Positions 13,398 to 27,672 of a stretch of DNA of 64,000 bases are shown here, one piece after another. Location of the stretch: assembly GCA_024763075.1 (NCBI GenBank), contig JANTGF010000003.1:1-64000 (forward strand), written 5' to 3'. Every line of letters begins with the position of its first letter. Within the stretch, counting starts at the first letter, position 1. Under the pieces are notes generated by a model. The model was given only the letters and a program-made list of their open reading frames with translations. It was not told the origin of the DNA and searched no databases. Position numbers and translations under genes: made by a program. This DNA comes from Bacteroidales bacterium. GTDB taxonomy: Bacteria; Bacteroidota; Bacteroidia; Bacteroidales; VadinHA17.

Positions 13398-16300
13398 TTG
13401 AATAAGAAATTAAAATATTTTATTTTCGGGTCGGGATTGTTTTTTGTTTTGTTTGTATTCTCTGGTATGGGGTATGCTGAAGGGTTTATTTCTCCTTTCA
13501 TCAATATAGAACTCTTTTTACAGGATACTAGCCGCACAGATACCACTCCTGATTTAAAATACCCTTTTCAGGATGAGTCCGGGAACCCGTTTCTTCCGGG
13601 CTATAAGTCTGCGTTATATCTGAATCCTCCTTCAAATATCAAGAGAGAAGTAGTTTTTGATGAAAAAACCGGAAAATATACGGTTTATGAAAAGATTGGG
13701 GCTCTTGATTACCGGCCTCCGGTTACCATGAGCCTGGAAGAATATAAAAAATGGAAATTTGACCAGGAAATGCGTTCCTATTGGAGACAAAGAGCTTCAG
13801 GAACAGTTCAGGATTTTAAGAAATCGCTTATTCCTGAAATTCATGTGGGAGGAGCTGGATTTGACAAAGTTTTTGGCAGCAATGTTATCAATATAACTCC
13901 TCAGGGTTCAGCTGAATTAATTTTTGGTATAAATACTTCCCGGATAGATAATCCTGCTTTATCAGAAAGACTACGTAAGGTGACAACATTCGATTTTCAG
14001 GAGAAAATTCAGATGAATGTTACGGGAACAATCGGAGATAAAGTAAAACTGGGTGTAAATTACAATACTGAAGCAACTTTTGACTTTGAGAATCAAACAA
14101 AACTGGAATACGCAGGGAAAGAAGACGAGATTATAAAGAAAATTGAGGCGGGAAATGTAACTTTCCCCTTACCCGGAACATTGATTACCGGAAGCCAGAG
14201 TTTATTCGGTTTAAAAACAGACCTGCAATTCGGGAAGTTAAGTGTTTCAACGGTCTTTTCGCAGCAGAAAGGAGAAACTTCAGTGATTGATGTGAAAGGG
14301 GGTGCTCAGATTCAGGATTTTGAGGTTGAGGTAATAGATTATGAGCAAAATAAACACTTCTTTCTGTCTCATTTTTTCAGAGATAATTATGATAAATCTT
14401 TGAAAAACCTGCCGGTAATTAATACCGGGGTTAATATTGAAAAAATTGAAGTTTGGATTACAAATAAGTCTAACAAATTTGAGGAGTCAAGAAATATTGC
14501 AGCATTCATGGACCTGGCAGAGTCTTCTGCAAACATATTTAATACAGTTCCGGAGTTCCAGCAAACTCAGCCGGGCATTTTGCCCGATAACGGACTTAAT
14601 GGCCAGTATAATGCGATGAATACAACCTATTCGGGAATCCGGGATGTGAATAATATTACAACCACTCTTGCACCCTTGGAACCGGGTTTTATAATCGGTC
14701 AGGACTATGAAAAGATAGAAAATGCAAGAAAGCTTACGGAGAGAGAGTACACGGTTAACAGGCAATTGGGATACATTTCGCTGAATACGGCATTGAATGC
14801 AGATGAAGTCCTAGCGGTTGCATATGAGTACACTTACCAGGGGAAAGTTTACAAAGTAGGAGAACTCACCATAGATGGAATAAGTGCTCCAAAAACCCTG
14901 GTGCTTAAGTTGCTGAAGGGTACAAGCCTGACTCCTAAGCTTCCGACCTGGGATCTGATGATGAAAAATATATACTCCCTTGGGGCTTACCAGTTAAGTC
15001 AGAAAGATTTTCAGCTGCATGTTTTGTATCGCGACGATAATAATGGGAATGCCGTAAATTATATAACAGAAGGAGCCATCGCAAATAAAATTTTACTGGA
15101 AGTATTAAACCTGGATAATCTGGATTCTCAACTGGCACCCAATCCTGATGGACGATTTGACTTTATGCGTGGAATTACAATTAACCCTGAAAACGGCCGG
15201 GTTATATTCCCCGTGCTGGAACCATTCGGTAGTTATCTCAGGGAGAAAATAGCGGATGATGCCATTGCGGACAAATATGTATTTGAAGAATTATATGATT
15301 CAACCAAAGTAAGAGCGGAACAGATTTCTGAAAAAAACAAATTCCTTTTAATGGGTTCGTATTCTTCATCTTCAAGTTCTGATATCCCTTTAAATGCCAT
15401 TAATGTCCCGAAAGGATCGGTCAAAGTAACAGCAGGAGGAATACAATTAACAGAGAATGTTGACTATACGGTAGATTATAACCTGGGTAGAGTGAAGATT
15501 ATTAATCCCGGTTTACTTCAGTCCCAAACACCTATCAGGGTTTCTCTGGAGAGTAACCAGCTTTTTGCTTTTCAAACCAAGACCTTATTGGGAACTCACC
15601 TTGAATATCAGATCAATGATAATTTCAACGTTGGGGGTACTTTCATGAATCTGACCGAGCGTCCCCTGACCCAAAAAGTTAACATTGGTGATGAACCTAT
15701 GTCTAATATTATCTGGGGACTAAATACTTCTTATGAGAAGAAATCGAGATTTTTAACAAATCTGGTTGACTGGTTACCATTAATCCAGACGAAGGCTCCT
15801 TCATCGATTCGTTTTTCCGGTGAATTTGCCCAGCTTGTACCCGGTCATTCCAAAGCAGTAGGGAAAGCAGGTACTTCCTATATTGATGATTTTGAGGGTA
15901 GTGAGACCTCAATTGACTTAAAATCCCTGAATGCCTGGGTAATGGCCAGTATTCCTTTTGGCCAACCGGACATGTTTCCTGAGGAGCAGGTGAACAATAG
16001 CAGGGTTTCAGGTTTTAACAGGGCAAAACTGGCATGGTATTTTATTGATCCCTTGTTTTTAAGAAACAATTCATCTACACCTGCACACCTGAAAAATAAT
16101 CCGGATGCACAATCAAGTCATTATGTCCGGGAAGTTTTTGAAAAGGAAATATGGCCAAATAAAGAAACTCCCAGTGGAATTCCCACAAATATTGCTGTTT
16201 TAAACCTTGCATTTTACCCACAGGAGAAAGGACCGTATAATTACGATCTTGTTCCGAACAGGTATTCTTCCGGTTTAAATACAGATGGTTCATTACGCGA

Positions 16301-19300
16301 TCCGGAAACCAGGTGGGGAGGAATTATGCGTGAGGTACAAACAAATGATTTTGAAGCGGCCAATATTCAGTATGTGAAATTCTGGCTGATGGATCCTTTT
16401 GTAGAAGATCCGGATAACCCAGGAGGGGATCTTTACATTAACTTTGGGGATATTTCTGAGGACATATTACTCGATTCAAGGAAAAGTTTTGAAAATGGCC
16501 TGCCAATCGGTCCTGAAGTCATTGATGTGGATACGACCATATGGGGACGTGTTCCCACAAAGCAATCACTGGTGAATGCATTTGATAATGATATTAACTC
16601 AAGAATCTATCAGGACGTTGGACTGGAGGGGTTGATGGACTCCGATGAAGCTACTTTTTTTAATGATTATCTGGATTCATTGAAAAATATAGTAAACCCT
16701 GATATTTATGAAAAAATGGCTGAAGACCCTTCCACCGATGATTTTCATTACTTCAGAGGAAGTGATTATGATGGCCAGGAACTTGGAATTCTTGACAGGT
16801 ATAAGAAGTACAACGGTCTGGAAGGGAATTCTCCTACTGCCGAACAATCAGAAGAAAATTACCCTACTACCGGATCAACTTTGCCGGATGTTGAAGACAT
16901 CAACAGGGATAATACATTAAGTGAAACGGAAAGTTACTACCAATATAGGGTTAAAATTGATCAAAACAACATGAAAGAAGGCCAGAATTACATTACCGAT
17001 GTAGTAACTTCTACGGTTACACTGGCAAACGGGCAGCAATCTTCGGTGAAGTGGTATCAGTTTAAAGTGCCTTTGTCTGATTATCAGAGAAGAATCGGGT
17101 CTATACAGGATTTTAAATCAATCCGTTTTATGAGGATGTTCCTGCGTGGTTTCAGCAAACCGGTTATTATGCGTTTTGCAGAACTGGAACTGGTAAGAGG
17201 AGAATGGAGAAAATATGATTTTTCATTGTTACAGGGTGGTGAAAATATTACGGTGCCTCAGCCTTCCAGCGGAGCTTTTGAAATATCTGCTGTGAATATT
17301 GAGGAGAATTCAAGTAAAGAACCTGTAAATTATGTACTGCCTCCGGGTTTTGACAGAGAGATTGACCCGACCAACCCTCAGTTGCAACAATTGAATGAAC
17401 AATCTATGGTTTTGTATGTTAAAGATCTTGGCGATGGGGATGCCAGAGCTGCTTTTAAAACTACAAGCTATGATTTCCGGAAATACAAAAAGGTACAGAT
17501 GGAAATCCATGCGGAAGCTTTTCCGGGGGAAATACTGGGGGATGATGATTTGACAGCATTCATCCGTTTGGGTACAGATTACCGTAATAACTATTATGAA
17601 TATGAAGTTCCTTTGAAAGTTACTCCTCCCGGAAGATATAGCAATGATTCTGAAACAGACAGGCTGATTGTCTGGCCTGAAGAAAATAGAATGGAAATTG
17701 ACCTTAAAATATTTCAGGAACTTAAAATGGCAAGAAATGATGCCTTAAGAAGAGCAGGATCAAATATAAAACCCAATGATATTTTCGTTAGTATTACTAA
17801 GGATGGCAGGTCAGTGAAAATTGCCGGAAATCCGAACCTTAGTAATGTCCGGACAATTATGGTTGGTGTACGTAACCCGCACAGGAATCCGGATGACATG
17901 AATGATGATGGTTTAAGTAAATCAGGAGAGATTTGGGTAAATGAACTTCGTTTAACAGACTTTGACAGCAAGAGTGGATGGGCAGGAAATGCCAGACTTC
18001 AGGCACAACTGGCTGACTTGGGTTCCATTGACCTTGCAGGCCAGACGGTAAAACCAGGTTTTGGTAGTATTGAGAAAAAAGTCAGTCAGCGAAGTACCGA
18101 AGAAATCCTGGAATATGATATTTCAACCAACCTCGAGCTGGGTAAGTTTTTTCCTGAAAAAGCCAATGTTCATATACCTCTTTACATGGGATTTTCAGAG
18201 TCCAGAACCAATCCTGAATACAATCCCATGGATCCTGATATCCCCTTGAAGGCTGCTTTGGATCATGTGGAAACAAAAGAAGAAAAAGACTCCATTAAGT
18301 ATTATGCACAGGATTATGTAAAAAGGAAAAGCCTGAACCTGACGAACGTGAATGTTGGTATCCGGAGTAAAAAACCTAAAATTTATGATCCGGCTAATTT
18401 CGCTATTAATTATTCCTTTAATGAAATTCTTGCTAGAAATGTGAAAACGGAAATTAACCTTGAAAAAAATTACAGAGGTGGGTTTTCGTACATTTATAAT
18501 ACCAGACCTAAAGTTATTGAACCATTTCGGCAAACAAAGGCACTGAATGCGAAAGCATTAAGATTAATTAAGGATATTAACTTTTCTTTATACCCGAGTT
18601 ACTTGTCATTCCGTACTGATTTGACCAGACATTACAATGAAGTAAAAACCCGTAATATTGACAATCCACAATTAAAAATTAACCCGACATTCCGTAAAGA
18701 TTTCTCATGGAACAGATATTATGATGTGAAGTGGGATTTGACAAAAGCTTTGAAATTTGATTTTAATGCCGGAAATATTGCACGGATTGATGAGCCCCAG
18801 GGTGGAGTGGATCGTGATAGGTATAAGGATGAATATCAACTTTGGAAAGATTCAGTATTGGTGAACTTGAAAAACTTTGGAAGGAATACACATTATTATC
18901 ACACCTTTAATGTTTCTTATACCATACCTATTAATAAATTGCCTTTACTTGACTGGGTTACACTTACAGCCAGATATACAGGTACATATGACTGGTACGC
19001 CGGGCCTTTATTCGCCGATTCTGTGAAAATAAACCTCGGTAACCGGATACAAAACTCCAATACAGGCCAGTTGAATGGTCAGTTAAATATGATAAACCTT
19101 TATAATAAAATAGGTTTCCTCAGGGATATTAATCAGAAAAGCCGTTCGGGAAAGTTGGGCAAATCAGATCAGAAAAGGTTTAAAAAGGTAGTTTATACCA
19201 GGGAAAACATGCGGTTAAAGGCAAACGAACCCAAGGCCATCTATCATAAATTGGGTACTGAAAATGTAACAGTAAAGGTTTATGACAGTGATAATAACGA

Positions 19301-20843
19301 AATTAAAGGGGATGTAAAAATTGACAATGACCGGCGGATTACATTTACACCGGATAAAGATTATAAGAATACATCTATTATAGTTGAAGGGCAAAAGGAG
19401 CGAAAACCGAATCCAATGATCTATATTGGCGAAGTTTCTGCGAGGGTTCTAATGGGCCTTCGAAATATTTCTTTGTCATACTCTCAGAATGAAGGTACGG
19501 TTTTGCCCGGTTATTTACCGAAAACGGATATTATGGGTATTCAGCGGGTGGGTCCTAACCTTGCTCCCGGCATTCCGTTTATCATGGGTTATCAGGACCG
19601 GGGTTTTGCTGAGCAGGCGGTCAGAAACAATTGGTTAACAACAGATACTGTATTGAATGCAGCTTATTTAATGACACATAGTGAGAATTTTAATTTCAGA
19701 AGTACCATTGAACCTTTCAGAGGATTAAGAATTGATCTTACCGCAAACCGAAGGATATCCAAGAACTTCAGTGCTTACTATTTGGCCGATAGAAACGGGA
19801 ATTTTCCTGACAGTACAAGAAATGATATCTATTCCGGAAATTTCAGCATGTCTTATATTACTTTGGGTACTGCTTTTGAAAAAGTCTCAAGAAAGAATAA
19901 TTACGAGTCGGAAAATTTCAATAAGTTTGTTAAATATACTGAAATTATTTCTCAAAGACAGGCGGATATTAAACAACAGGAAGACCCGTCTTATGATCCC
20001 GATATGGACCCGGAAACAGGATTGCCAATTGAAGGACCCTATAAAAACGGCTATTCCATTACTTCTCAGGATGTGTTGATTCCCGCATTTCTGGCTGCTT
20101 ATGCAAATCGTGACCCCTACCGGATAGGGCTGGATGCCTTGCCTTCTATTCTGGATATTCTTCCTAACTGGAGAATTACTTTTGACGGGCTGGGAAGGCT
20201 GGATTTCTTTAAAAAATATTTCCGTTCCATTACCTTATCTCATGCTTATCGTTCCACATATGACATTGGAGCATATAAAACCAATTTAAATTACGATGAT
20301 ATTGAAAGTATCCGGGGATTGAATTATAATTTTCTCCCTGAGTTTGATATTGCAGCGGTTGCATTGAATGAACAGTTTAGTCCCTTAATTAATTTTGATA
20401 TGGTTTGGAAAAACGGGATTACATCCAGGTTTGAAATGAAAAATTCCAGAACCCTGTCACTTAGCCTCTCAAATAACCAACTTACTGAGATTGTGAATAA
20501 TGCAATTGTTGTTGGCACAGGATACAGGTTTAACAACCTGAAATTTTCGATTAAGACAGGTGGAAGTAAAAAAGAATTAAAAAGTGACCTTAACCTGAGA
20601 GCTGATGTGGAGATCAGGGATAACGTTACGGTTATGAGAAAAGTGCTTGAAGCCACCAATGAACCAACTGCCGGACAACGTATCATCACAATTAAACTTA
20701 CGGCTGATTATGTTTTGAGTGACCGGTTTAATCTGCGGATTTTCTTTGACAGAATGGTAAATAAGCAGCCCTATATTGCCAGGACTTTCCCAACTTATAA
20801 CACCAATGCGGGTTTCAGCCTTCGCTTTACACTCTCACAATAG
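13398..20843 (+). CDS. sprA: Type IX secretion outer-membrane protein SprA/Sov
   Basis: A 2,481-codon gene for the giant outer-membrane protein SprA (called Sov in Porphyromonas). It forms the translocation pore of the T9SS, which exports proteins carrying a C-terminal sorting domain and supports gliding in some species. The length is typical of the family. A TTG start is used here because it gives a proper signal peptide (KKLKYFIFGSGLFFVLF, cleavage near YAEG); no earlier start is available after the ruvA stop at 13382. Recognisable are the N-terminal repeat-like region with LGVNYNTEATFDFENQ near residue 217 and the SYIDDFEGSE motif near residue 830. The C-terminal part is rich in alternating aromatic residues typical of beta strands and ends in FSLRFTLSQ, a terminal beta signal. 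The phospholipase D-like protein at 52783-55296 is a likely cargo. Confidence 0.95.
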   Translation: MNKKLKYFIFGSGLFFVLFVFSGMGYAEGFISPFINIELFLQDTSRTDTTPDLKYPFQDESGNPFLPGYKSALYLNPPSNIKREVVFDEKTGKYTVYEKIGALDYRPPVTMSLEEYKKWKFDQEMRSYWRQRASGTVQDFKKSLIPEIHVGGAGFDKVFGSNVINITPQGSAELIFGINTSRIDNPALSERLRKVTTFDFQEKIQMNVTGTIGDKVKLGVNYNTEATFDFENQTKLEYAGKEDEIIKKIEAGNVTFPLPGTLITGSQSLFGLKTDLQFGKLSVSTVFSQQKGETSVIDVKGGAQIQDFEVEVIDYEQNKHFFLSHFFRDNYDKSLKNLPVINTGVNIEKIEVWITNKSNKFEESRNIAAFMDLAESSANIFNTVPEFQQTQPGILPDNGLNGQYNAMNTTYSGIRDVNNITTTLAPLEPGFIIGQDYEKIENARKLTEREYTVNRQLGYISLNTALNADEVLAVAYEYTYQGKVYKVGELTIDGISAPKTLVLKLLKGTSLTPKLPTWDLMMKNIYSLGAYQLSQKDFQLHVLYRDDNNGNAVNYITEGAIANKILLEVLNLDNLDSQLAPNPDGRFDFMRGITINPENGRVIFPVLEPFGSYLREKIADDAIADKYVFEELYDSTKVRAEQISEKNKFLLMGSYSSSSSSDIPLNAINVPKGSVKVTAGGIQLTENVDYTVDYNLGRVKIINPGLLQSQTPIRVSLESNQLFAFQTKTLLGTHLEYQINDNFNVGGTFMNLTERPLTQKVNIGDEPMSNIIWGLNTSYEKKSRFLTNLVDWLPLIQTKAPSSIRFSGEFAQLVPGHSKAVGKAGTSYIDDFEGSETSIDLKSLNAWVMASIPFGQPDMFPEEQVNNSRVSGFNRAKLAWYFIDPLFLRNNSSTPAHLKNNPDAQSSHYVREVFEKEIWPNKETPSGIPTNIAVLNLAFYPQEKGPYNYDLVPNRYSSGLNTDGSLRDPETRWGGIMREVQTNDFEAANIQYVKFWLMDPFVEDPDNPGGDLYINFGDISEDILLDSRKSFENGLPIGPEVIDVDTTIWGRVPTKQSLVNAFDNDINSRIYQDVGLEGLMDSDEATFFNDYLDSLKNIVNPDIYEKMAEDPSTDDFHYFRGSDYDGQELGILDRYKKYNGLEGNSPTAEQSEENYPTTGSTLPDVEDINRDNTLSETESYYQYRVKIDQNNMKEGQNYITDVVTSTVTLANGQQSSVKWYQFKVPLSDYQRRIGSIQDFKSIRFMRMFLRGFSKPVIMRFAELELVRGEWRKYDFSLLQGGENITVPQPSSGAFEISAVNIEENSSKEPVNYVLPPGFDREIDPTNPQLQQLNEQSMVLYVKDLGDGDARAAFKTTSYDFRKYKKVQMEIHAEAFPGEILGDDDLTAFIRLGTDYRNNYYEYEVPLKVTPPGRYSNDSETDRLIVWPEENRMEIDLKIFQELKMARNDALRRAGSNIKPNDIFVSITKDGRSVKIAGNPNLSNVRTIMVGVRNPHRNPDDMNDDGLSKSGEIWVNELRLTDFDSKSGWAGNARLQAQLADLGSIDLAGQTVKPGFGSIEKKVSQRSTEEILEYDISTNLELGKFFPEKANVHIPLYMGFSESRTNPEYNPMDPDIPLKAALDHVETKEEKDSIKYYAQDYVKRKSLNLTNVNVGIRSKKPKIYDPANFAINYSFNEILARNVKTEINLEKNYRGGFSYIYNTRPKVIEPFRQTKALNAKALRLIKDINFSLYPSYLSFRTDLTRHYNEVKTRNIDNPQLKINPTFRKDFSWNRYYDVKWDLTKALKFDFNAGNIARIDEPQGGVDRDRYKDEYQLWKDSVLVNLKNFGRNTHYYHTFNVSYTIPINKLPLLDWVTLTARYTGTYDWYAGPLFADSVKINLGNRIQNSNTGQLNGQLNMINLYNKIGFLRDINQKSRSGKLGKSDQKRFKKVVYTRENMRLKANEPKAIYHKLGTENVTVKVYDSDNNEIKGDVKIDNDRRITFTPDKDYKNTSIIVEGQKERKPNPMIYIGEVSARVLMGLRNISLSYSQNEGTVLPGYLPKTDIMGIQRVGPNLAPGIPFIMGYQDRGFAEQAVRNNWLTTDTVLNAAYLMTHSENFNFRSTIEPFRGLRIDLTANRRISKNFSAYYLADRNGNFPDSTRNDIYSGNFSMSYITLGTAFEKVSRKNNYESENFNKFVKYTEIISQRQADIKQQEDPSYDPDMDPETGLPIEGPYKNGYSITSQDVLIPAFLAAYANRDPYRIGLDALPSILDILPNWRITFDGLGRLDFFKKYFRSITLSHAYRSTYDIGAYKTNLNYDDIESIRGLNYNFLPEFDIAAVALNEQFSPLINFDMVWKNGITSRFEMKNSRTLSLSLSNNQLTEIVNNAIVVGTGYRFNNLKFSIKTGGSKKELKSDLNLRADVEIRDNVTVMRKVLEATNEPTAGQRIITIKLTADYVLSDRFNLRIFFDRMVNKQPYIARTFPTYNTNAGFSLRFTLSQ

Positions 20844-21510: not shown

Positions 21511-21540
21511 AAAGGGGCAAATTTGCCCCTTTATTTATAT
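21511..21540. terminator. Bidirectional terminator between gcvH and infB
   Basis: A perfect 22-base palindrome, AAAGGGGCAAA joined to TTTGCCCCTTT, flanked by A-rich DNA on the left and T-rich DNA on the right. It can act on both converging transcripts, gcvH from the left and infB from the right. Confidence 0.85.
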
Positions 21541-21559: not shown

Positions 21560-24400
21560 TTATAAAGTCTTTTTTATCTCGGTTTCTGTAAAGGCTTCAA
21601 TCATATCTCCCACTTTTATATCATTGTAATTCTTAATATTCAATCCACATTCCAGGCCGCTAACTACTTCTTTTACATCATCCTTAAATCTTTTCAGTGA
21701 GCCCAGCTCACCTGTATAAATAACAATTCCTTCCCTGATTACCCGAATCTTGTTATCCCTTTTTATTTTACCTTCCCGTACAATACATCCTGCGATGGTT
21801 CCAACCTTTGTAATCTTAAAAACTTCCTGAATCTCAACTGTTGCAACAATTTCCTCCCTTATCTCAGGAGAAAGCATTCCCTCCATAGCTGCTTTAATCT
21901 CTTCAATCGCGTCATAGATAATGGAATGTAAACGGATATCAATTTGTTCTTTCTCGGCAAGTTGTCTTGCTCCCAGTGAGGCCCTGACCTGGAATCCAAT
22001 AATAACAGCATCGGATGCCATGGCCAGCATGATGTCTGATTCTGTGATCTGACCCACGGCTTTATGAATAACATTAAGACTGATTTCTTCAGTTGACAGT
22101 TTTTGTAATGAGTCTGAAAGAGCTTCAATGGAGCCGTCAACATCTCCTTTCACAACAACATTGAGTTCCTGGAAGCCACCAACAGCTATTCTTCTGCCAA
22201 TTTCATCAAGGGTAATATGCTTTTTAGTTCGCAGGCTTTGTTCCCTTTGGAGTTGACTTCTTTTGGTGGCAATTGCTTTTGCTTCTCTGTCATTATCCAT
22301 AATATTAAAGGTATCACCTGCTTTAGGTGCACCATTCAATCCCAATAAAATCACCGGAGAAGAAGGCCCTGCACTTTCCATTACCCTGCCTTTTTCATTA
22401 TACATTGCTTTTGCGTGGCCATAATGGTTTCCTGCCAGTACAATATCTCCGGCATTAAGAGTGCCATCACTTACAAGCAAAGTAGTTACAAAACCTTTTC
22501 CTTTATCCAGGGTTGATTCAAGAACGATTCCTTTGGCTTTTTTATTAGGATTTGCTTTTAATTCAAGCAGTTCTGCCTCCAATAATACTTTTTCCAAAAG
22601 TTCATCAACATTTTTACCATTAATGGCTGAGATTTCCTGTGATTGATATTTTCCACCCCAGTCTTCAACCAAAAGGTTCATGTTTGAGAGTTCCTCCTTA
22701 ATTTTTTCAGGGTTGGCAGTTGGCTTATCCATTTTATTTATGGCAAAAACAATAGGTACATCAGCTGCAAGTGCATGGTTTATTGCTTCAACCGTTTGAG
22801 GTTTAACACCATCGTCAGCTGCAATTACAATAATAACAATATCAGTAACCTGAGCTCCACGTGCCCTCATAGCTGTAAATGCCTCATGGCCCGGAGTGTC
22901 CAGAAAAGTTATTTTTCTGTCACCTTCCAAATTCACACTGTAGGCACCGATATGCTGGGTAATCCCTCCGGCTTCACCGGCAACCACATTTGCCTTACGG
23001 ATGTAATCAAGAAGTTTTGTTTTACCATGATCCACATGACCCATAACAGTTACAACGGGAGGCTTGGGTATAAGATCTTCCTCCAGGTCTTCCTCAACTT
23101 CCAGTTTATCCGTTAGTTCAACACTAACAAATTCAATTTTATAACCAAATTCATCGGCAACAACGGTCATGGTCTCAGCGTCCAGTCTTTGATTTATGGA
23201 AACCATCAGACCCAGGCTCATACATGTGGAAATGATGTCTGTTACAGGAACTTCCATTAAACTGGCCAATTCATTTACCGATACAAATTCTGTAACCTTT
23301 AAAACATTCTTTTCCTGTTCTGTTTTGTCAAGTTCAATTTTTTGCCGTTCACTTATAGCATCTCTTTTTTCCCGTCTGTATTTGGCACCTTTTGATTTCC
23401 CTTTACTACTTAGGTTGGCAAGTGTATCTCTGATTTGTTTCTGAACATCTTCAGCGCTTATCTCCGGTCTTGCAGCTCTTCTTTTCTTCCCTGGTTTATG
23501 TTCTTTTCTTTTCTCTCCCGGTTTTGGCGCATGTCCACCGGTGGAAGAATCATCTGCAGGCTTGTTTTTCCTTATTCTCTTCCGTTTCTTTTTGCTAATT
23601 TCCGTATCTTTCGAAGAGGCAACGGGTTTTTTCTTAGGTTCCGCCACGGGAAGGTCAATTTTGCCTACAACCGTTGGCCCGTTAAGTTTTTCAATTTTAG
23701 ACTTAAATATCTCCTCTGTTTTCTCTTCAGGAATTTCTTGAACAGGTTCTTTCTTTTCTTCCTTTACAGGTTCTTCAGCAGGAAGATCTTTTTTAATTTT
23801 AGCTGCAGGTGCCTTTTCCTTCTTTTTAGGTTTTATTTCTTTTTCAACCTGAACCTTTTCAGTTTCCGGTTCCTTCTTACTTACTTTTTCTTCTTTCTTT
23901 TTCGCAGGCTTCGTTTTCCTGGCGACTGTTCCCAGGTCAATCTTCCCAACTACTTTGACTTCGACATCTTTTTTTGCTTCCTTCTTTTTCGGAGGTTTAG
24001 CTTCTTTTTTCTCTGTTTTTGGTTCAGGTACTTCCTTTTCCTTTTCCTTTTCCTTGATTTCCGGAACAGATGGGGAAGTACTTGAATCCTTGATAAAAAC
24101 TTCTTCTTCCGGTTTTTGAGTAACAATTTCTTTTGATTCCTTTGAATCAGTTATTGAAACATCTCCATGCTTACTTTCTTTATCTCTAAAATGTAAAAGA
24201 CTAAATTCCTCAGACTTTTTCTTTATGGATAGATCAGTACTGTATTCTCTGGCCAGCATTTCATAAACTTCAGGGTCTATCTTCGTATTGGGATTACTGT
24301 CAATATCAACACCTTTCTTATGCAGAAAATCAACAATGGTTGATATTCCCACATTGAAGTTACGGGCTGCTTTACTTAATCTGGTTGCTTTTTTATCCAT
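21560..24400 (-). CDS. infB: Translation initiation factor IF-2
   Basis: The GTPase that brings initiator tRNA to the 30S subunit. It has 946 residues. The N-terminus, KATRLSKAARNFNVGISTIV, is the typical IF-2 N domain. Residues about 85-370 are a long low-complexity Lys/Glu/Pro linker. The G domain begins near residue 445 with VMGHVDHGKTKLLD (P loop), AGGITQHIGAY (switch I), DTPGHEAFTAMRARGA and NKMDKP. Domains II-IV follow and bind fMet-tRNA. The linker is long, as in other Bacteroidota. The gene is the last of rimP-nusA-infB, 74 bases after nusA. Confidence 0.97.
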   Translation of the reverse strand: MDKKATRLSKAARNFNVGISTIVDFLHKKGVDIDSNPNTKIDPEVYEMLAREYSTDLSIKKKSEEFSLLHFRDKESKHGDVSITDSKESKEIVTQKPEEEVFIKDSSTSPSVPEIKEKEKEKEVPEPKTEKKEAKPPKKKEAKKDVEVKVVGKIDLGTVARKTKPAKKKEEKVSKKEPETEKVQVEKEIKPKKKEKAPAAKIKKDLPAEEPVKEEKKEPVQEIPEEKTEEIFKSKIEKLNGPTVVGKIDLPVAEPKKKPVASSKDTEISKKKRKRIRKNKPADDSSTGGHAPKPGEKRKEHKPGKKRRAARPEISAEDVQKQIRDTLANLSSKGKSKGAKYRREKRDAISERQKIELDKTEQEKNVLKVTEFVSVNELASLMEVPVTDIISTCMSLGLMVSINQRLDAETMTVVADEFGYKIEFVSVELTDKLEVEEDLEEDLIPKPPVVTVMGHVDHGKTKLLDYIRKANVVAGEAGGITQHIGAYSVNLEGDRKITFLDTPGHEAFTAMRARGAQVTDIVIIVIAADDGVKPQTVEAINHALAADVPIVFAINKMDKPTANPEKIKEELSNMNLLVEDWGGKYQSQEISAINGKNVDELLEKVLLEAELLELKANPNKKAKGIVLESTLDKGKGFVTTLLVSDGTLNAGDIVLAGNHYGHAKAMYNEKGRVMESAGPSSPVILLGLNGAPKAGDTFNIMDNDREAKAIATKRSQLQREQSLRTKKHITLDEIGRRIAVGGFQELNVVVKGDVDGSIEALSDSLQKLSTEEISLNVIHKAVGQITESDIMLAMASDAVIIGFQVRASLGARQLAEKEQIDIRLHSIIYDAIEEIKAAMEGMLSPEIREEIVATVEIQEVFKITKVGTIAGCIVREGKIKRDNKIRVIREGIVIYTGELGSLKRFKDDVKEVVSGLECGLNIKNYNDIKVGDMIEAFTETEIKKTL

Positions 24401-24474: not shown

Positions 24475-25713
24475 TTATTCAAACTCTGCCTTTAAAATTT
24501 TTAGTACTTCCTGTACAGTTTCCTCTTCCAGGTCTGTTCTTTTAACAAGTTCTTTTTCCGGAATCTCCAGAACACTTTTTGCTGTATCACATCCAATTGC
24601 CTTTAATTCAGATATAATCCACTCCTCAATCTCATCAGAGAACTCTTCCAGGTTCACATCTTCATCGTCCATACCTTCCTGATCCCTGTAAACATCCAGG
24701 TCGTAGCCGGTAAGCTGGCTGGCAAGCCTTATGTTTAATCCGCCTTTTCCAATTGCCAGAGATACTTCTTCAGGCTTTAGGAAAACATCGGCCTTGTTAT
24801 CATCAGGATATAGTTTTATTGAAACTATTTTTGCAGGACTCAGTGCCCTTTGAATAAACAATTGAGTATTTGCCGTATAATTTATTACGTCAATATTTTC
24901 ATTTTTCAATTCCCTTACGATCCCATGAATTCTGGACCCTTTCATTCCAACACAGGCACCAACCGGGTCGATCCTTTCATCATAAGACTCAACGGCAACT
25001 TTTGCTCTCTCTCCCGGAACTCTAACAATTTTCTTAATGGTAATCAGCCCGTCAAATATTTCCGGAACTTCAAGCTCAAACAAGCGCTCCAAAAATACAG
25101 GAGAGGTACGTGAAAGAATAATCACCGGATTATTGTTTTTAAATTCTACCTTAACAACAACAGCGCGTATAACATCACCTTTATGAAAATAATCAGAAGG
25201 AATCTGCTCGCTTTTAGGTAAAAGGAGCTCATTTCCTTCATCATCGAGAATAAGAATTTCCCTTTTCCAGACCTGGTAAACTTCACCGGTGATCAACTCT
25301 CCGATTCTGTCTTTATACTTATTGAAAATATTTGTTTTCTCAAGATCAAGAATGCGTGAGGTAAGATTCTGACGCAGGGACAAAATAGCCCTTCTTCCAA
25401 AATCAGGAAGTTTTACCTCATCCGTGACATCTTCCCCAACTTCATAATCTTCATCTATTTTTTTAGCTTCAGAGAGGGAAATTTGCAAATTATTGTCTTC
25501 TACTTCACCATCTTCCACTACTTCCCTGTTTCTCCAGATTTCAAAGTCACCCTTATCGATATTAATAATGATATCAAAATTTTCATCCGTTCCGTATTTC
25601 TTTAGCAGCATGTTTCTGAAAACATCTTCAAGCACACTCATCATGGTGGCCCGGTCAATATTTTTTAACTCTTTGAACTCAGAAAAAGTATCTATGAGAT
25701 TAATATTTTCCAT
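24475..25713 (-). CDS. nusA: Transcription termination/antitermination factor NusA
   Basis: Binds RNA polymerase and nascent RNA, promoting pausing and hairpin-dependent termination. The 412 residues comprise an N-terminal polymerase-binding domain (about 1-125), an S1 domain (from about 137, ITGEVYQVWKREILIL), and KH1 and KH2 domains. KH1 contains RIDPVGACVGMKGSRI near residue 250 and KH2 contains SLAIGKGGLNIRLASQL near residue 320. A short acidic, helical C-terminal part follows. It lies between rimP (13 bases upstream) and infB. A terminator-like hairpin in the operon leader makes self-regulation plausible. Confidence 0.97.
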   Translation of the reverse strand: MENINLIDTFSEFKELKNIDRATMMSVLEDVFRNMLLKKYGTDENFDIIINIDKGDFEIWRNREVVEDGEVEDNNLQISLSEAKKIDEDYEVGEDVTDEVKLPDFGRRAILSLRQNLTSRILDLEKTNIFNKYKDRIGELITGEVYQVWKREILILDDEGNELLLPKSEQIPSDYFHKGDVIRAVVVKVEFKNNNPVIILSRTSPVFLERLFELEVPEIFDGLITIKKIVRVPGERAKVAVESYDERIDPVGACVGMKGSRIHGIVRELKNENIDVINYTANTQLFIQRALSPAKIVSIKLYPDDNKADVFLKPEEVSLAIGKGGLNIRLASQLTGYDLDVYRDQEGMDDEDVNLEEFSDEIEEWIISELKAIGCDTAKSVLEIPEKELVKRTDLEEETVQEVLKILKAEFE

Positions 25714-25726
25714 TATATTTTAAATG

Positions 25727-26200
25727 CTATTTAAATGATAAAATTAGTTTTGCCGATTTAATATTTTTCAAAGGCAATGTTACTTTCTTTTTTATTACTT
25801 CTTTCTTTTTTCTCCCGGGAACCTTAATAACTCTTTCATTCTCAATGATAACATGGTCATCTTTCGTTTGCAGGAGAGTGCCTTTTATTTTATTGTCTTT
25901 TAGGTCAATAAGCTCTATCTTCTTCCCTACACTTTTCTCGTATTGTTGTTTAACCTTAAAAGGAGTATCAATTCCGGGTGAAGACACATTTAACTCAAAA
26001 ACCAGGTTCTCATCTGCTTCAAGAAGTTTTTGCTCAAGAAGTTTTGATATTCTGGCGCACTCACCAATCGTTATCCCTTTTTTGTTATCCACAGAGACCT
26101 GTATCCTGTTGCTTGCCTGAATCCTGATATCAACAACAAAAAATTCAAAATCCAGTTCTCCGGAATCAAGTATCTGCTCTATTTGACGCTTAATATTCAC
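25727..26200 (-). CDS. rimP: Ribosome maturation factor RimP
   Basis: Assists 30S subunit maturation. The GTG at 26200 gives 157 residues beginning NIKRQIEQIL, the expected length and N-terminus. The longer open frame beginning at 26260 was rejected because it would start inside the -7 promoter element and would read through the leader hairpin. Family features are the N-terminal domain with FFVVDIRIQASNRIQVSVDN, then CARISKLLEQKL, and VSSPGIDTPFK near residue 83; the C-terminal Sm-like domain carries a lysine-rich loop. First gene of rimP-nusA-infB. Confidence 0.9.
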   Translation of the reverse strand: MNIKRQIEQILDSGELDFEFFVVDIRIQASNRIQVSVDNKKGITIGECARISKLLEQKLLEADENLVFELNVSSPGIDTPFKVKQQYEKSVGKKIELIDLKDNKIKGTLLQTKDDHVIIENERVIKVPGRKKKEVIKKKVTLPLKNIKSAKLILSFK

Positions 26201-26212
26201 TAATAATTTGTA

Positions 26213-26238
26213 CAAAAATAGGGGACCTCTGTCCCCTA
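26213..26238 (-). terminator. Terminator-like hairpin in the rimP-nusA-infB leader
   Basis: On the minus strand TAGGGGAC and GTCCCCTA form a perfect 8-bp stem with an AGAG loop, followed directly by TTTTTG. It lies between the promoter (26258-26289) and the GTG of rimP (26200), about 13 bases before the start codon. The divergent gene on the other side begins at 26410, so no upstream transcript needs this terminator. It is therefore best read as an attenuator of its own operon. Confidence 0.7.
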
Positions 26239-26257
26239 CAATCAATCTTTCAGGCGG

Positions 26258-26289
26258 CAAAGATACATATTATCTGATAATTTTACAAA
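26258..26289 (-). promoter_or_regulatory. Bacteroidetes promoter of rimP-nusA-infB
   Basis: On the minus strand TTTG (26289-26286), a 20-base spacer, and TATCTTTG (26265-26258) match the -33/-7 consensus TTTG-N19-21-TAnnTTTG exactly. Transcription would start near 26250, giving a leader of about 50 bases that holds the hairpin described separately. Confidence 0.8.
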
Positions 26290-26409: not shown

Positions 26410-27672
26410 GTGAATTCTCTAAATAAAAGAAAAATAATTAACGACCCGGTTTATGGGTTTATAGATATTCCTTCAGACCTTATTTTTAACATCCTGGAAC
26501 ATCCTTATTTCCAGAGACTTTCCAGGATTAAACAGCTGGGGCTGACCTACTTTGTATATCCAGGTGCACAGCATTCAAGATTTCAGCATTGTCTGGGAGC
26601 TTTGCATTTGATGTGCTCATGCATCTCTGCATTAAGAGGGAAAGGGGTAGAGATAAGCAGCGAGGAAGCCCAGGCTGTATCAGCAGCGATTTTGTTACAC
26701 GATATTGGTCACGGCCCTTTTTCACACGCCCTGGAAAAAAGTCTGATTGAAGGAATATCACATGAAGATCTGTCAGGGTTATTTATGGAGGAAATAAATC
26801 AGCAGTTTTCAGGTAAACTTGATCTTGCGATACAGATTTTTAATAATAAATACAAAAAGAAATTCCTTCATCAGCTGGTGGCCGGGCAACTGGATATGGA
26901 CAGGCTGGATTACCTGAGACGCGATAGTTTTTTTACAGGAGTGAGTGAGGGAACTATTGGTTCTGACCGGATTATAAAAATGATGAATGTGGTTGACGAT
27001 CAGCTTGTGATTGATGTAAAGGGGATTTACTCACTGGAAAAATTTCTCATTGCCCGAAGATTGATGTATTGGCAGGTTTATTTACACAAAACTGTACAAT
27101 CAGCAGAGTTTCTCCTGGTGAAAACCCTGCAAAGAGCCAGGGAACTTGCCAGGCAAGGTGGGGAGGTTTATGGAACGCCTTCGTTAAAGTTCTTTTTATA
27201 TAATAACATTAATTATTTTTCCGTTTTTAATGAAAATCCGGACTGGGAATCAAAGGAAATTATCGAAAAATTTGCAATGCTTGATGACAGTGATATCATT
27301 ACATCAGCCAAAGTTTGGGCGGAAGGAGGAGACAAAGTATTACAATTGTTGAGCAGGAGGCTTATAAACCGGGATTTGTTTAAAGTGGAATTATCAGATA
27401 ATCCGTTTTCTTCAAGTTTTCTGGCTTCTGTAAAGGAATGGGTGGCAAGTGCATATAATATTGAAAAAGAGCAAGCAGATTATTTCGCTTTCTCAGAAAT
27501 GATCAGTAATTATGCGTTTGATCCTGATGACCATAATATGCAGATTCTCTTTAAAGATGGTAGCCTGCACAATATAACTCAGGTTTCAGACATTTTAAAT
27601 TCACGTGTTTTATCAATGAAGGTGAAAAAATACTGTCTTTGTTATCCTAAAAAATATAAGAATATTAACTAA
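26410..27672 (+). CDS. HD-domain phosphohydrolase (dNTPase-like)
   Basis: A 420-residue HD-superfamily protein of the deoxynucleoside triphosphatase-like group (SAMHD1/YdhJ type). The N-terminus reads IINDPVYGFIDIP. The metal-binding residues are visible as RFQHCLGALHLM near residue 57 and LHDIGHGPFSHALE near residue 96, with the later aspartate in QLDMDRLDYLRRDS. Homologues hydrolyse phosphate esters of nucleotides; the substrate here is unknown. The GTG start follows a -7 promoter element by five bases. lpxD begins 18 bases after the stop, so the gene may head the lpxD-lpxC-lpxA cluster transcript. Confidence 0.88.
   Translation: MNSLNKRKIINDPVYGFIDIPSDLIFNILEHPYFQRLSRIKQLGLTYFVYPGAQHSRFQHCLGALHLMCSCISALRGKGVEISSEEAQAVSAAILLHDIGHGPFSHALEKSLIEGISHEDLSGLFMEEINQQFSGKLDLAIQIFNNKYKKKFLHQLVAGQLDMDRLDYLRRDSFFTGVSEGTIGSDRIIKMMNVVDDQLVIDVKGIYSLEKFLIARRLMYWQVYLHKTVQSAEFLLVKTLQRARELARQGGEVYGTPSLKFFLYNNINYFSVFNENPDWESKEIIEKFAMLDDSDIITSAKVWAEGGDKVLQLLSRRLINRDLFKVELSDNPFSSSFLASVKEWVASAYNIEKEQADYFAFSEMISNYAFDPDDHNMQILFKDGSLHNITQVSDILNSRVLSMKVKKYCLCYPKKYKNIN

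Follow-up and report, generated by a model that had tools for sequence, protein, structure and literature searches.

The rimP-nusA-infB operon and its leader

The window, by which we mean the whole 64-kb stretch of DNA analysed, carries rimP, nusA and infB on one strand, their identities assigned by domain search, and the leader considered here is the 5' UTR of rimP. The upstream neighbour of rimP is a divergent ORF (26410-27672, plus strand), so no gene reads into the leader hairpin and a terminator at this position acts on its own operon only. The features of the locus are:

26289-26258, minus strand: Bacteroidota-type promoter, TTTG-N20-TATCTTTG, read from the sequence and made up of TTTG (26289-26286), a 20-base spacer and TATCTTTG (26265-26258)
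about 26254-26251, minus strand: predicted transcription start, placed by promoter spacing
about 26254 to 26239, minus strand: short stretch of leader 5' of the hairpin, poor in C and rich in purines, a composition shared with relatives
26238-26219, minus strand: stem-loop UAGGGGAC-AGAG-GUCCCCUA, with 8 pairs and a 4-nt loop
26218-26214, minus strand: U-run (TTTTT in the DNA), followed by G at 26213; the predicted 3' end of a short transcript
25727..26200, minus strand: rimP, first gene of the operon, GTG start (RimP_N, 43.3 bits; the RimP C-terminal domain fell below the cut-off)
24475..25713, minus strand: nusA, the candidate regulator (NusA_N, S1 and KH domains)
21560..24400, minus strand: infB, encoding IF2 (IF-2 and GTP_EFTU domains)

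An earlier sequence-only reading of this DNA had described an exact promoter, a short leader, an 8-bp hairpin and a U-run close to the rimP GTG, and all of these elements were found on the minus strand. A pattern search of the window returned a single match (in 64 kb) to the exact promoter pattern. With one mismatch allowed, about one chance match is expected per window, and the evidence for the promoter is therefore its location and its conservation among relatives. From the predicted start to the GTG the leader spans 51-54 nt, and the U-run ends about 13 bases before the GTG at 26200 (12 bases after G 26213). An open frame running from a TTG at 26260 through the hairpin was taken as a frame accident.

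The stem-loop has a fold energy of -13.2 kcal/mol, its test pair formed with a probability of 1.00 at all leader lengths tried, and a ninth pair (G.U, between 26239 and 26218) is possible. Taken from the window sequence alone, the stability of the leader relative to shuffles was modest (z -1.5), and a generic terminator scan of 12 kb returned 12 sites versus 11.0 in shuffled DNA, i.e. no excess. Given this modest single-sequence evidence, the case for the hairpin was decided by comparison with relatives. The core hairpin pattern occurred once in the 4.6-Mb genome. Scored with a covariance model trained on 32 leaders, its own included, the window leader reached 41 bits, compared to 19.9 bits at the next best site. 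A regulon sharing this hairpin at other genes of the genome was considered and rejected, as the covariance model scan found none. Rfam gave no gathering-level match in the window, and the leader itself gave chance-level matches only (E values of 4-10).

At the far end of the operon, infB and gcvH are convergent, and the symmetric hairpin between them (AAAGGGGCAAATTTGCCCCTTT, 21511-21532) has A/T runs and is likely a two-way terminator. gcvH comes after a gene (13398-20843) whose 2481-aa product matches the T9SS outer membrane translocon Sov/SprA (TIGR04189, 2781 bits).

Conservation and turnover of the leader hairpin across Bacteroidota

We fetched 80 nusA loci and inspected the region upstream of rimP. 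A hairpin followed by a U-run was present in nearly all of the loci that contain this region. A mechanical test, conservative and defined in a way that favours hairpins, was applied to the 110 nt before rimP and identified a terminator in 132/139 Bacteroidia loci (77/79 of the first set and 55/60 further loci of the same class), compared to 2.3% of dinucleotide shuffles. At other gene starts in the same loci, a hairpin with a U-run occurred in 5/218. Among the missed loci, one (L021) does not extend far enough upstream of nusA, and in several more a hairpin does appear once larger loops or a different start codon are allowed. The sequence-only reading had named in advance a lack of stem conservation in relatives as the outcome that would count against it; on inspection both the position and the structure of the stem were kept, and the terminator stood.

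The promoter was likewise conserved. The motif TAnnTTTG preceded rimP in 129/139 Bacteroidia loci, with a TTG 18-22 bases further upstream in 101/124, and a terminator was located between this promoter and the start codon in 124/129 cases for rimP versus 0/28 for other genes. The U-run immediately after the stem was conserved among relatives, the stem ending 10-30 nt from the start codon in most of them. Spacing from hairpin to promoter (sd 5.0) was somewhat tighter than from hairpin to start codon (sd 7.3, the start codons being predicted), which lends weak support to a transcriptional over a translational role. In a few genomes with a longer leader, the hairpin lay near the promoter and not near the start codon. 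Across 124 Bacteroidia leaders, the segment between promoter and hairpin was C-poor and purine-rich compared to the DNA upstream; this composition could keep the G-rich arm free or could represent a binding site. A comparison of U-run strength with 3'-end terminators drew on only seven such terminators.

A whole-phylum search was made with a covariance model (R1), which matched 78/296 genomes, with some matches located away from nusA. As R1 depends on the GGGGAC stem and on strict filters, the region upstream of nusA was read directly instead. In the other classes of the phylum, a leader terminator was found in 52/56 loci (23/24 and 29/32 in two sets) by a looser test that also passes 10-23% of shuffles (28/120 and 10/96, respectively). 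These classes carry full or tandem terminators with 5-8 U. Tandem terminators before rimP were observed at eight loci (L179, L180, L182, L184, L186, L190, L191 and L193), mostly with GGGG..CCC first and GCGCCCG..CGGGCG second. In 7/8, cross-pairing between the arms of the two hairpins would be possible, with energies of about -7 to -11 kcal/mol, weaker than each hairpin alone. Tandem terminators with inverse motifs, in the opposite order, have been described in some Gammaproteobacteria (Naville and Gautheret, PMC2965389).

Pairing was maintained while the letters of the stem changed. Almost all loci had a loop of between 3 and 6 nt. Among the 63 rows selected with the model, the outermost position held U-A, G-C or C-G, with both partners altered in 23 cells, and an inner A-U pair was replaced by G.U in 10/63; six stem pairs were invariant, an outcome that model-based row selection favours. 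Within one family (13 sequences, gap-free flanks), 5/8 pairs had changed on both sides and 99% of cells paired, with a covariation of 0.46 versus 0.14 for shuffles and ≤0.18 when the partner was slid, although these rows were picked for an 8-5-8 hairpin and the choice favours pairing. The mean alignment puts no gaps in the loop and was left out of the pair counts. Elsewhere the stems were unrelated yet paired, including GAAGGGAACG/CGUUCCCUUC, GAGGCACGC/GCGUGCCUC, AAGGC/GCCUU, AAAGUCCCGC/GCGGGACUUU, GCGCCCG/CGGGCG and AAGUGGGG/CCCCACUU. In one genus (g7), the loci L157-L159 and L162 have both flanks of the hairpin in common with L160 and L164, and their stems are swapped (GAGGGGAC, GAGGCACG, GAGGGAAG) and fully paired, a clean case of fast stem turnover. 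As the letters change under kept pairing, the conserved object is a terminator and not one sequence; a conserved terminator explains the turnover, which one protein-recognised sequence does not.

In many Bacteroidia, AGGGGAC/GUCCCCU was nearly constant letter for letter. This constancy exceeds the needs of a plain terminator and counts against an explanation by a terminator and NusA. One possibility, to which we give a small share of credence, is that the Bacteroidia stem is itself read by a protein, either through the RNA-binding domains of NusA or by another factor, and serves as a sequence-specific feedback site, families with other stems having lost or changed this recognition.

Probable attenuation and the candidate role of NusA

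Comparison across the phylum makes it very probable that the leader hairpin is an intrinsic terminator, and the expectation that it stops its own operon only was borne out by the divergent upstream neighbour. The terminator would sit about 15-40 nt after the transcription start. Some RNA polymerases would stop at the U-run (26218-26213), releasing an RNA of about 40 nt, and the remainder would continue into rimP-nusA-infB. As the U-run of the window leader is short (UUUUUG), termination there could be weak. From the geometry, the rimP start codon would still be unmade when this decision falls, so that ribosomes on rimP could not influence it. Nor was an antiterminator or alternative fold apparent, complementarity of the 5' segment to either stem arm being no higher than in shuffles (116 leaders). 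With no competing RNA structure seen, the simplest account is that polymerase-bound proteins determine the split between termination and read-through.

In other bacteria, hairpin-dependent termination is strengthened by NusA, which is encoded in this operon. Negative feedback on rimP-nusA-infB is therefore proposed: NusA would strengthen termination in the leader, so that the operon would be expressed less when NusA is abundant and more when it is scarce. Termination in vivo, its partial nature and the setting of its extent by NusA are all inferred, the role of NusA from precedent in B. subtilis, Streptococcus agalactiae and E. coli. For the complete reading, an early attenuator under NusA negative feedback, we estimate a probability of about 65%.

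The terminator could instead be constitutive, partial and unregulated, simply setting the output of a strong promoter at a fixed lower level. Without an antiterminator or sensing element, the RNA itself demands no regulation; but a weaker promoter would give the same result, the upkeep of the terminator throughout the families sampled, at the operon of a termination factor, suggests a purpose, and in B. subtilis this operon is known to be under NusA feedback (PMC12288461), so we consider a terminator of this kind unlikely. A slightly poorer prospect is that attenuation is real and set by another factor, whether RimP, IF2, NusG, a ribosomal protein or nucleotide supply. RimP and IF2 are also made by the operon, NusG is reported to act on intrinsic termination in B. 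subtilis (PMC8060035), and the letters of the stem are unusually constant in many Bacteroidia families, as if read. The unrelated stems that keep a terminator in other families argue against a general sequence-specific binder.

The sequence-only reading had also suggested that the hairpin might hide the ribosome site. In its broader form, where the main effect of the hairpin would be on translation or on the stability of the mRNA (through masking of the start region or protection of the 5' end) and no termination would occur, this proposal draws on the short distance between stem end and start codon in most relatives. It fared less well in the comparison and we hold it to be improbable: the U-run right after the stem is kept, also where the stem is replaced, other classes carry full or tandem terminators, and, more weakly since start codons are predicted, the hairpin is spaced somewhat more tightly to the promoter and stays beside it in a few long leaders. 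A near-perfect inverted repeat downstream of a promoter could, lastly, be a DNA operator bound by a dimeric repressor. This was rejected, and we give it next to no weight, as the distance between the arms varies (between 3 and 6 nt for almost all loci), wobble pairs break the DNA symmetry in 10/63 rows and the letters of the stem turn over. The variable loop and the wobble pairs largely refute it. An early attenuator under NusA feedback thus remains our preferred reading.

Evolution has kept the position, the hairpin and the U-run and let the letters of the stem drift, which suggests a device that acts at the level of transcription and predates its present sequence. How termination is regulated has been little studied in Bacteroidota, and for gut and environmental members of the phylum the leader provides a simple system in which feedback on a general transcription factor can be tested.

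Relation to known rimP and nusA leaders

The leader belongs to a known kind, of which we found a single mention for Bacteroidota, without a mechanism. The sequence-only reading knew of no description of the device in this phylum; it is less new than that reading supposed, the general element having been named in 2010 and a rimP element listed in Flavobacteriaceae in 2021. The latter comes from a transcriptome of F. psychrophilum, which reported a structured 5' element before rimP, conserved in Flavobacteriaceae and lacking an Rfam match (PMC9723704). It is almost certainly the same element as the window leader. In that paper it is listed as an original cis-regulatory element, and the main text gives no terminator, mechanism or link to NusA. 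Neither rimP nor nusA is mentioned in the main text of the transcriptome paper on B. thetaiotaomicron (PMC7366714).

The general element is the rimP-leader of Naville and Gautheret 2010 (PMC2965389), whose main text ranks the gene first for predicted attenuation, calls the attenuator the "most ubiquitous", describes a G-rich 5' arm and a C-rich 3' arm without an antiterminator, and proposes NusA as the regulator. As in the rimP-leader, the window has a predicted premature terminator directly before rimP-nusA-infB, with a U-run and without a larger conserved element or antiterminator. The hairpin and U-run of the rimP-leader lie 4-130 nt before the gene, a range into which the window leader falls (stem end at 26219, five U, GTG at 26200). 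The motif of the rimP-leader is GGGc..gCCC; the window has a G-rich and a C-rich arm but reads GGGGAC..GUCCCC, the usual form here, and other lineages of the phylum have unrelated stems. The main text names Firmicutes and Gammaproteobacteria, and the word Bacteroid does not occur in it. A terminator known mainly from those two groups is now extended to the sampled families of Bacteroidota; what is added here is its phylum-wide extent, the turnover of its stem and the tandem terminators of other classes.

In E. coli, rimP is preceded by the two terminators of the metY-nusA-infB leader, t1 and t2, and the operon is a target of its own product NusA (PMC6511841); feedback by NusA was reported by Bylund et al. 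2011, as cited in PMC4448216. That leader is much longer than the one described here and includes metY, three promoters and RNase III sites. In B. subtilis, NusA is autoregulated through NusA-stimulated termination in the leader (PMC12288461). There, as proposed for the window, an intrinsic terminator ahead of nusA limits transcription into the gene. The B. subtilis leader is longer (about 180 nt, PMC2965389, compared to about 50 nt), and its NusA dependence was shown by experiment, whereas that of the window leader is proposed from precedent. The rimP-nusA-infB leader of S. agalactiae has the same short architecture as the window leader. RNA-seq revealed a transcript that stops 31 nt downstream of its start, where an intrinsic terminator is predicted, together with a longer transcript from the same start, and NusA feedback was proposed (PMC4448216). 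The short transcript seen there by RNA-seq is the counterpart of the one that we predict for the window from sequence and comparison.
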